From positions 1 to 34,522 of IMG/VR virus record IMGVR_UViG_3300027494_000010: a stretch of DNA of 34,522 bases. The stretch is one strand, 5' to 3'. The first letter of the stretch is position 1. Each line of letters begins with the position of its first letter. Both the position numbers and the translations under genes were made by a program. Under the pieces are notes generated by a model. It did not search any database. It saw only the letters and a program-made list of their open reading frames with translations, and had not been told where the DNA came from. This document shows, piece by piece, positions 9,669-12,119 of the stretch. The stretch is from a virus.

Positions 9669-9936
9669 GAAGGTCGTCGAGCAGTACCTGGTCAAGCGCG
9701 TCAAGGCGGCGGGCGGGGTGGCGTATAAGTTCGCCAGCCTGAGCCACCGGGGCGTGGCGGACCGCATCGTCTGCCTGCCCGGCCAGACGTGGTTCATCGA
9801 ACTCAAAACAACCGGCGGGCGCCTGTCTGAGCTGCAAAAGGTCTTTGCGGAGGACATGCGCCGGCTGGGCCAAAAATATACGGTCTTGTGGACCAGAGAG
9901 GATGTGGACGAATGGATCTTAGACAATACCAAATAG
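9661..9936 (+). CDS. VRR-NUC domain nuclease
   Basis: A compact 91-aa VRR-NUC nuclease of the PD-(D/E)XK superfamily. The catalytic pattern is visible: E7 in the first helix (SEKVVEQYLVKRVKAAGG), D34 in HRGVADRIVCLPG, and ELK at 47-49 (WFIELKTTGG), followed by LSELQKVFAEDM. Single-domain VRR-NUC proteins are common next to SNF2-type helicases in phage replication modules, and that is the arrangement here: the helicase start lies 25 nt inside this gene's end. Its role is probably structure-specific cleavage of branched DNA together with the helicase. The start at 9661 matches the usual family start; the frame open to 9532 is rejected as overlap with the previous gene. Confidence 0.92.
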   Translation: MSEKVVEQYLVKRVKAAGGVAYKFASLSHRGVADRIVCLPGQTWFIELKTTGGRLSELQKVFAEDMRRLGQKYTVLWTREDVDEWILDNTK

Positions 9937-12119
9937 AAGCTGCCCAGTTCCTGTTCTCGACACCGCGCAGCATGGTGCTGGCGCCCGTCGGCGCCGGCAA
10001 GACCGCCACCGCGCTGACGGCCATGCAGGCCGCGCTGGCGACCGGGCAGGTACGTCGGTGGCTGGTCGTCGCGCCGAAGCGCGTGGTGACCGCTGTGTGG
10101 CCCGTAGAGGCGCCCATCTGGGCGCCCGGCATGACGGTCGCCCTGTCCATCGGCACGCCGGCCCAGCGGCTGGCTGCTGTGCAGTCGGACGCGCAGGTCG
10201 TGGTGACCAACTACGATAACCTGCAATGGCTGGCGACGCAGCGGATGGACTTCGACGGCGTGGTGTTCGACGAACTCACCCGGTTGAAGAACCCGTCCGG
10301 TAAGCGGTTCAAGGCGATTGAGAAGGCGTTGGCGCCGATACAGGTGCGCTGGGGTCTGACCGGGTCGTTCACGTCCAACGGGCTGGAGGATGTGTTCGGG
10401 CAGTGCAAGATCGTGGACGAACGTCTGCTCGGCCGCAGCAAGGGCGCGTTCCTGCAACAGTACTTCTACTGCATCAGCCGCGATTTCAACGACTGGGCAC
10501 CGGTGCCGGGCTCGCTGGAAAAAGTCATGGCCCGCATCAAGCCGGCCACCTTCCTGCTCGACCCTGGCATCTACACCACCACCCTGCCGCCGCTGCACGT
10601 CGTGGAACTGACCACGCGCATCGCCGACCGGGCGCCGTATGAGTCGATGAAGAAGAAGTTCGTAGCGGAGTTCGGCGACACCCGCGCCATCGCCCAGACC
10701 GCCGCTACCGTCACCGGCAAGCTCCAGCAGATGTCCTGCATAGCACACGACACCCCTGTGCTGACAGATGCCGGATGGATGCCCATACAAGACGTCACTT
10801 CCGCGCATTGCGTATGGGACGGCGAAGAGTGGGTTAATCAGGACGGGTGCATTCCCAAAGGAGTGCAACTAACTGACGTCTGTTTTGGCGTGCGGATGAC
10901 GTATAATCACGAGGTGTTAACCGTAGCAGGTTGGAAAACCGCCAAAGAGGTGATTGATGGGAATGCCGGCAAAAGATTTGACAGGGCAGCGGTTCGGTTA
11001 CCTGACCGCATTGCGGCGCCACGGGTCGAACGGGAACTATTGCGCGACATGGCTTTGTCAATGCGATTGCGGGGTGCAAGTCGTGCGGCAAAGTCAGTAT
11101 TTGCGGGACTCGACCCGCAAGGGGGCGCGGAGTTGTGGGTGTCGCCACAACAACACCGATCATGGAATGTCTGCCAGCCGACCGTTTCGCATCTGGACGC
11201 ATATGCGCCAGAGATGCTTGAGCCCTCGAGACAAAGATTTTCCTCGCTACGGCGGCGCGGGGGTAAGCATTTGCAACTCGTGGGCAGAGTCTTTCAATGC
11301 GTTTTGGGCCGACATGCAGCATGGGTACGCCGACAACTTAACAATAGACCGCGTGGATGGGTCGAAAGGCTACTGCAAGGAAAACTGCCGGTGGGCAACT
11401 ATGCGGGAACAGCAAAACAACCGAAAGGACAATGTGTGGCTGGACACGCCGAAGGGACGAATGACCGTTTCGCAAGCCGCAGCGGCGTATGGGCTTCGTT
11501 CTGTAACGCTGCACGCGCGGCTTTTTCGGTACAAATGGGATTTAGCCCGCGCACTGAGTACGCCCGGACGTACGACTTGTTGAATTGCGGGCCGCGCAGT
11601 CGATTCGTGGTTTTAGGGGAGGATGGCCGCGCGCTGGTCGTCCACAACTGCGGGTTCGTCTACGCCGACGGCGCCACGCACTGGTATTCGGAACACAAAT
11701 TAGAACGGCTGGATGAGCTACTTGAAGAAAATCAGTTCGCGCCTACAATAATCGTTTACAACTATCAGGCCGAGTTGGCGGCGCTGAAGGCGCGCTATGG
11801 GGCCAGAGCCGTAACGATGGAGGATCCTCGTGCTGTCGAGCGCTGGAACTGCGGAAAAGTATCCATCCTCCTGCTGCACCCCAAGTCAGCCGGACATGGC
11901 CTTAACCTACAGCACGGCGGGAGCAAGATGGTTTTTCTGTCGCTGCCTTGGTCGCTGGAACTCTTTGAGCAGACCGTCGGCCGGCTGCATCGCAGCGGGC
12001 AGCAACACGCCGTCTGGTGCTATGTCATTCTGGCGGAACAGACGATAGACCAGACCATCTGGCGCGCACTGCACGACAAACGAAACCTGTCCGATATTGC
12101 CTTGGAGGCACTGAAATGA
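9912..12119 (+). CDS. SNF2-type DNA helicase interrupted by an intein
   Basis: Superfamily-2 (SNF2-like) helicase. Precursor of 735 aa: N-extein 275 aa, intein 304 aa, C-extein 156 aa, giving a spliced helicase of 431 aa. The N-extein has MDLRQYQIEAAQFL, Walker A APVGAGKT (24-31), the DExx box DELT (120-123) and motif III LTGS (149-152). The C-extein has motif V SAGHGLNLQHG and motif VI QTVGRLHRSGQQ. The intein is inserted between the two RecA-like lobes, after MS and before CGFVYADGA, where uninterrupted relatives run straight through. The start at 9912 gives the family-typical N-terminus; AGAGAGG lies 10 nt upstream. Without splicing the two lobes would be separated, so activity should depend on the intein. 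Confidence 0.93.
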   Translation: MDLRQYQIEAAQFLFSTPRSMVLAPVGAGKTATALTAMQAALATGQVRRWLVVAPKRVVTAVWPVEAPIWAPGMTVALSIGTPAQRLAAVQSDAQVVVTNYDNLQWLATQRMDFDGVVFDELTRLKNPSGKRFKAIEKALAPIQVRWGLTGSFTSNGLEDVFGQCKIVDERLLGRSKGAFLQQYFYCISRDFNDWAPVPGSLEKVMARIKPATFLLDPGIYTTTLPPLHVVELTTRIADRAPYESMKKKFVAEFGDTRAIAQTAATVTGKLQQMSCIAHDTPVLTDAGWMPIQDVTSAHCVWDGEEWVNQDGCIPKGVQLTDVCFGVRMTYNHEVLTVAGWKTAKEVIDGNAGKRFDRAAVRLPDRIAAPRVERELLRDMALSMRLRGASRAAKSVFAGLDPQGGAELWVSPQQHRSWNVCQPTVSHLDAYAPEMLEPSRQRFSSLRRRGGKHLQLVGRVFQCVLGRHAAWVRRQLNNRPRGWVERLLQGKLPVGNYAGTAKQPKGQCVAGHAEGTNDRFASRSGVWASFCNAARAAFSVQMGFSPRTEYARTYDLLNCGPRSRFVVLGEDGRALVVHNCGFVYADGATHWYSEHKLERLDELLEENQFAPTIIVYNYQAELAALKARYGARAVTMEDPRAVERWNCGKVSILLLHPKSAGHGLNLQHGGSKMVFLSLPWSLELFEQTVGRLHRSGQQHAVWCYVILAEQTIDQTIWRALHDKRNLSDIALEALK
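10737..11648 (+). mobile_element. intein in the SNF2 helicase
   Basis: 304-codon intein read in the helicase frame. The N-terminal block starts with catalytic Cys1 (CIAHDTPVLTDAGW). Block B is VRMTYNHEVLTVAGW with the T-x2-H motif (Thr codon at 10899, His codon at 10908). The C-terminal blocks are TYDLLNCGPRSRFVV and ALVVHN, with penultimate His, terminal Asn and Cys as the +1 extein residue. The position normally filled by an in-frame endonuclease, between block B and the YDLL block, instead holds about 200 residues of Arg/Ala-rich, unfamiliar sequence. That segment is the overprint of an HNH gene in the +1 frame. Boundaries follow from the standard Cys...HN/Cys rule. Confidence 0.92.
10957..11583 (+). 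CDS. HNH homing endonuclease nested out of frame inside the intein
   Basis: 208-aa endonuclease in the +1 frame relative to the helicase-intein. It has an N-terminal LTGQRFGYLTAL segment, a zinc-type cluster WLCQCDCG plus CGC (C34/C36/C38, C60/C62), the nuclease core LTIDRVDGSKGYCKENCRWA with REQQNNR (about 128-155), and a C-terminal SQAAAAYGLRSVTLHARL segment like a NUMOD/HTH DNA-binding module. Its own Shine-Dalgarno AAAGAGG (10944-10950) sits 6 nt before the ATG. An in-frame TGA at 10951 just upstream excludes a simple read-in fusion. An ATG at 10963 is an alternative start. Its stop (11581-11583) falls within the codons of intein block F. The expected role is to cut intein-less helicase alleles and spread the element. 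Confidence 0.9.
   Translation: MGMPAKDLTGQRFGYLTALRRHGSNGNYCATWLCQCDCGVQVVRQSQYLRDSTRKGARSCGCRHNNTDHGMSASRPFRIWTHMRQRCLSPRDKDFPRYGGAGVSICNSWAESFNAFWADMQHGYADNLTIDRVDGSKGYCKENCRWATMREQQNNRKDNVWLDTPKGRMTVSQAAAAYGLRSVTLHARLFRYKWDLARALSTPGRTTC

Follow-up and report, generated by a model that had tools for sequence, protein, structure and literature searches.

An HNH gene nested in a second reading frame of a predicted phage helicase intein

In HNH and LAGLIDADG maxi inteins, the endonuclease is an in-frame domain situated between splicing blocks B and F. At one phage helicase locus, this same interval is occupied by an HNH gene that is a separate, overlapping reading frame, which raises the question of whether an intein and its endonuclease can share one stretch of DNA without being parts of one protein. 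Our analysis makes it very probable that the phage SNF2 helicase gene at this locus contains a mobile intein of the class 1 type and that the homing endonuclease of this intein is encoded separately, by a gene nested in the +1 frame of its linker.

Architecture of the helicase intein and its nested gene

The window analysed here is a stretch of 34,522 nucleotides corresponding to IMG/VR virus record IMGVR_UViG_3300027494_000010, in which a SNF2-type helicase gene forms one continuous frame at positions 9912-12119 of the plus strand, which also carries all window features described below. The N-extein (9912-10736) is supported by matches to SNF2-rel_dom (PF00176, 6.3e-11) and to the DNA helicase family phrog_62 (2.9e-108), and the C-extein (11649-12119), whose first residue is Cys+1, by a match to Helicase_C (PF00271, 2.4e-6). 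Between them lies a stop-free intein of 304 amino acids (10737-11648, Cys1 to Asn304), recognised from its motifs, from matches to the sequence profiles of the NEQ068 and Mtu RecA inteins in the PDB, and from a modelled HINT core. Following Cys1, block A reads CIAHDTPVLTDAGWMPIQDV, block B GVRMTYNHEVLT (T-x-x-H), block F TYDLLNCGPRSRFVV and block G ALVVHN, with Cys+1 at 11649 directly after the latter; the motif series CIAHDTPVLTDAGWMPIQDV, T-Y-N-H, YDLLNCGPRSRFVV and VHN|C thus appears in order. The sequence criteria for a class 1 intein, namely a nucleophile at residue 1, TxxH, a C-terminal HN and Cys, Ser or Thr at +1, are all fulfilled, and the spliced helicase is predicted to have 431 amino acids. 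Residues invariant across 47 relatives include C1, T6, G13, T55, H58, D280, G285, H303 and N304.

An AlphaFold model of the intein frame comprises two splicing halves, mostly with pLDDT of about 90-98, separated by a region mostly below 50. The N-terminal half (blocks A and B, residues 1-97, 10737-11027), which contains the invariant C1, T55 and H58, scores mostly about 95-98 as far as residue 70 and about 78-90 from there to residue 90, and the C-terminal half (blocks F and G, residues 272-304, 11551-11648), with D280, G285, H303 and N304, scores 91-96. The intervening frame-0 linker (11028-11550) is open, unconserved in sequence and predicted to be disordered. A Foldseek search with the model returned intein structures, the best being the Ssp DnaB mini-intein, and together with the profile matches this predicts a HINT fold.

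The nested gene (10957-11583, including its stop codon) lies in the +1 frame relative to the intein and encodes 208 amino acids that belong by profile to the HNH endonuclease family phrog_374 (1.1e-58). Its ATG at 10957 is preceded, at a spacing of 6 nt, by the Shine-Dalgarno (SD) sequence AAAGAGG (10944-10950; anti-SD pairing of -10.1 kcal/mol), and a TGA in the HNH frame is found just upstream of the start (10951-10953); TTG at 10954 and ATG at 10963 are alternative starts. Although PHROGs gave matches, Pfam and NCBIfam gave no informative match to either the intein or the HNH protein, and the PF01844 model gave no hit in the window record, which places the family of this HNH protein outside that model. 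The protein is modelled with confidence (mean pLDDT 88.7), and a PDB fold search with the model returned no convincing match. Like the group I intron HNH endonucleases, of which I-HmuI (PDB 1u3e) is an example, it has an HNH-core-like segment; however, the similarity to I-HmuI is only a weak sequence match (E 0.22), the first HNH histidine aligns with an Arg, and the host element is an intein. This Arg is present in nested and free-standing relatives alike. Given the Arg and the absence of a fold match, we regard nuclease activity only as an inference from family membership.

A reading made from the sequence only had claimed both a complete set of splicing blocks in a continuous 304-residue frame and a 208-residue HNH gene in +1 with its own AAAGAGG, 6-nt spacing and upstream in-frame TGA. 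Both claims are borne out, the former by sequence and motifs and the latter by sequence and phrog_374. A group I intron was also considered for the insert and rejected, since an Rfam search gave no intron match up to an E value of 1. No plasmid matches were obtained in a search with the intein.

Recurrence and selection on two reading frames

Contigs of IMG/VR and GTDB were searched with a profile, and with loci added from GenBank this gave 94 related intein loci. The HNH frame is +1 in 86 loci, +2 in six, in frame in none and absent in two, such that the out-of-frame layout is present in 92 of the 94. None has a stop in the intein frame, although nested examples were gathered with a frame-0 query and broken frames may be under-sampled. 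One locus counted among the 86 (L230) has its HNH match beyond a mini-intein of 148 amino acids. The +2 group consists of Jerseyvirus polymerases plus L243, L246 and L250. Three further nested helicase cases (L003-L005) were found with an HNH query.

Over all 304 residues, the frame-0 protein matches DNA polymerase inteins of Caulobacter phages GB2A, RW, RLK and KcrB, Shewanella phage SFCi1 and Hamiltonella APSE phages at 32-34% identity, and the nested HNH protein matches these same polymerase loci, again in the +1 frame. Hosts of the layout include APSE, Caulobacter, Shewanella and Salmonella (Jerseyvirus) phages, and the interrupted genes are polA and several helicase sites. The site in the window is the SNF2 helicase site KLLQIS|CGxVY; HPM|SMGHG is a second helicase site, GGKL|CEN, xEN|CxQ and AxLA|CGYGG are several further sites in polA, and there are other sites besides these. 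The nested layout was also encountered in bacterial assemblies (Sphingomonadaceae, Opitutae, Lachnospiraceae and Aggregatibacter kilianii; L252-L255), presumably as prophages. In polA of Streptococcus phage Javan104 (L258), an HNH gene lies inside the polymerase gene in a frame that differs by its coordinates from that of the polymerase, and is probably another nested case.

Selection acts on both frames. In all 54 nonredundant +1 cases the intein frame is open, over about 192 codons each, where the third frame averages 10.4 stops; the equivalent frame of other HNH genes averages 19.6, and that of free-standing HNH genes with a GC content of at least 0.48 has 6-22. The signature is also visible at the level of codons, because an HNH codon ending in T creates a stop in the intein frame when the next codon begins with AA, AG or GA. 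At such sites T is never used (0/1646), as compared with 1567 of 6168 sites (25%) elsewhere in the same nested genes (Fisher 6e-183), whereas control HNH genes use T at 49.1% and 48.7%, respectively (p 0.74). The window alone displays the same pattern (0/32 versus 37/128). These contrasts should be read with the frame-0 query behind the nested set in mind.

The two frames are not constrained in the same manner. When L174 and L183 are compared, substitutions in the overlap are distributed 17/13/60 among HNH codon positions, mostly the third, and change 22 amino acids in the HNH protein versus 65 in frame 0, while the non-overlapped N-terminal intein has the distribution expected of normal frame-0 constraint (7/5/27). 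This accumulation at HNH third positions indicates that selection preserves the protein sequence of the HNH gene but, in the linker, no more than an open frame. That the frame-0 linker is conserved as a functional protein was considered and rejected, as the HNH third position is the frame-0 first position in the overlap, where the changes gather, and only freedom from stops is retained.

Translation, mobility and competing explanations

As a rule, nested HNH frames are preceded at a short distance by a stop, and an ATG or GTG is located near the start of the HNH region. The best SD pairing per locus has a median of -7.3 kcal/mol versus -3.1 for random starts nearby (p 5e-18), and 89% of nested loci versus 31% of such random starts reach -5, with the caveat that conserved block-B codons (HEVLT, GAGGTG) may supply part of this signal. 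No clear SD is evident in the +2 group, which makes the mode of initiation less certain there.

Several observations concern mobility. In the closest intein-free helicase, which is 91% identical, the sequence KLQQMS|AGFVY corresponds to KLQQMS|intein|CGFVY in the window, and the +1 residue is Ser or Ala in most of the 80 intein-free relatives. The site is thus empty in close relatives, and L098, with a junction of the KLQQMS|AGFVY type, lacks the +1 Cys. Inteins are more alike than their flanking exteins in many pairs, for example 84% versus 61% and 56% for L182 and L185. In an HNH tree, which is a quick tree with modest supports, nested genes group largely by insertion site, with four label changes versus about 44 in shuffles. 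On this basis, two to four origins of the nested HNH layout are likely. Decay is also represented. By comparison with its close relative L244 (93-95% DNA identity), L249 is missing exactly 438 nt in the central part of the HNH gene, a loss that destroys the endonuclease and keeps the splicing frame. HNH remnants are also present in L229 and L230, two similar mini-inteins, and all three belong to the family of the window intein. Such mini-inteins represent the homing cycle at its decay stage, with the splicing frame retained.

Two side observations bear on exchange near these genes. L210 and L213 have near-identical exteins and N-terminal intein (one change in 195 nt) and differ by 14.5% in the HNH part, a mosaic that suggests exchange of the endonuclease segment. 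In L095 (2969-4820) and L099 (4001-5852), a partial copy of the helicase start is fused to a different HNH-like ORF directly before an intact intein-free helicase gene.

The mechanism we propose would begin with readthrough of the long frame to give a helicase-intein precursor, in which both halves of the HINT domain (about residues 1-97 and 272-304) may fold together across the floppy linker. The joined halves would then splice out the intein to yield the 431-residue helicase, a step inferred in the absence of any experiment. From the same mRNA, the HNH ORF would be translated separately from its own SD and ATG into a free endonuclease, internal initiation being equally an inference. The free protein would presumably cut helicase genes that have no intein, at the point of insertion, although neither this activity nor its target has experimental support, and repair after the cut would copy in the whole 912-bp unit.

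Four alternatives need to be weighed against this proposal. A sequencing or assembly error could conceal a canonical in-frame endonuclease, as the sequence-only reading had itself cautioned, and a single indel would bring the HNH gene into frame. A second IMG/VR record is identical to the window over 8,447 bp, though its independence as a sample is uncertain. An assembly error is implausible in view of the recurrence of the layout in dozens of divergent phages: two compensating indels would be needed in each of these separately sequenced genomes, and codon choice avoids frame-0 stops exactly. In addition, when synonymous codons were permuted while the HNH protein and its codon usage were kept, none of 20,000 shuffles of the window gene left the intein frame open (mean of 7.8 stops); in the converse shuffle, in which frame 0 was kept synonymous, the +1 frame stayed open in 13 of 20,000. 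The shuffles in both directions exclude chance as the origin of the overlap and, with the recurrence and the codon choice, lead us to reject a hidden single-base error; we assign frame error a negligible probability. Similarly little credence can be given to a non-splicing insertion that stays in the helicase protein. In mycobacteriophage methylases, an out-of-frame HNH (the 'ShiLan domain') has been described that its authors expressly distinguish from inteins (Arsenault et al. 2025, PMC11855218), and the principle is shared with the window: an HNH out of frame within a phage gene whose own frame stays open, with a sporadic distribution. However, the ShiLan element has no splicing motifs or residues, HINT fold, intein profile matches or detectable ribosome-binding site, whereas the window HNH has an SD and is surrounded by a full intein with splicing residues all invariant in 47 relatives, a HINT-fold model and intein profile matches; a splicing element, which the ShiLan type is without, is present in the window.

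The remaining two alternatives accept the intein and reinterpret the HNH gene. Ribosomes might slip into +1 within the intein to produce a fusion of the intein N-terminus and HNH without any internal start, which would suit two frames overlapping on one mRNA and account for an HNH start close to block B. Although we made no slippery-site analysis, the stop usually found in the HNH frame shortly upstream, the ATG or GTG with strong SD pairing near the HNH start, and the needlessness of so strong an SD signal for frameshifting leave this explanation with a slim chance. We are only marginally more receptive to the idea that the HNH gene is a free-riding or dead endonuclease gene that parasitises the intein and drives homing no longer, or never did. 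The Arg at the first catalytic His and the persistence of mini-inteins with HNH remnants could be read in this way; yet the Arg is common to free-standing relatives and hence is not a mark of decay, the HNH frame is under strong purifying selection, HNH clades follow insertion site, and intein and HNH move jointly between divergent host genes.

A continuous splicing frame with an independently translated out-of-frame endonuclease, as the sequence-only reading had interpreted the locus, is thus supported by layout conservation, selection on two frames, the ribosome-binding-site signal and the structure models. Its contention that the layout differs from in-frame and fractured inteins also stands: between blocks B and F the HNH does not share the frame of the intein, either in the window (+1) or in any of the 94 loci, and the unbroken frame at 9912-12119 is not a pair of half genes. 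The layout is not a singular case, however, as it recurs and was already present, unrecognised or wrongly described, in GenBank. We find no support for the further suggestion that the layout marks a stage through which mobile inteins arise, since it looks stable, old and repeatedly evolved. A broader proposal, which we judge to have even odds of being correct, is that these loci constitute a widespread class of phage inteins, so far unrecognised, in which the endonuclease gene overlaps the intein and is initiated independently, that the class arose more than once, to judge from the two relative frames and the separate HNH clades, with both frames co-selected, that deletions preserving frame 0 yield mini-inteins, and that endonuclease dose and evolution are physically separate from splicing.

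Relation to known elements and database annotation

Fractured (split) inteins, as Dassa is said to have set out in 2009, have a free-standing endonuclease between their halves. The endonuclease is a separate protein there as well, but the intein frame of the window is continuous and the gene is nested rather than placed between two genes. As with mini-inteins, the excised protein would be only a splicing domain; the DNA, in contrast, still encodes an endonuclease in the other frame. An out-of-frame HNH within a phage gene is already known from the ShiLan domain (PMC11855218), and what appears to be new here is the surrounding intein. Our literature searches found no other account of an intein with an out-of-frame or overlapping endonuclease. 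A 2025 preprint on actinobacteriophage inteins of 'non-canonical architecture', cited in PMC11855218, may already describe similar overlaps. At L054 (4006-4423), a same-family HNH lies out of frame in a 2807-residue open frame with no obvious intein motifs and is possibly ShiLan-like.

If our interpretation is correct, annotation has missed the endonuclease in many phage polymerases and helicases that are labelled 'intein-containing'. The layout would offer a way for an endonuclease gene and an intein to become one mobile unit without protein fusion, a long-standing question of intein evolution, and the uncoupling of endonuclease dose is directly testable by mutating one start codon. It also ranks among the cleaner natural examples of coding in two frames, and selection on both leaves a direct signature at the codon level.

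The polymerase inserts of APSE-1 (P45/P46), Salmonella phage Ent1 and Sodalis phage SO-1 have the nested architecture of the window, yet none of their GenBank records labels the insert as an intein with a nested endonuclease gene. For APSE-1, P45 and P46 are both recorded, as overlapping ORFs, and for Ent1 the intein is annotated and the HNH is not. GenBank phages include 163 records with a Jerseyvirus-type copy at 80% identity or more; among the records examined, most bear a polymerase annotation and nothing else. GenBank describes the SO-1 insert (GQ502199.1, L256) as a type I self-splicing intron; the HNH it encodes shares 82% identity with the one nested in the Jerseyvirus intein, and by this resemblance the insert is probably a mis-annotated intein.
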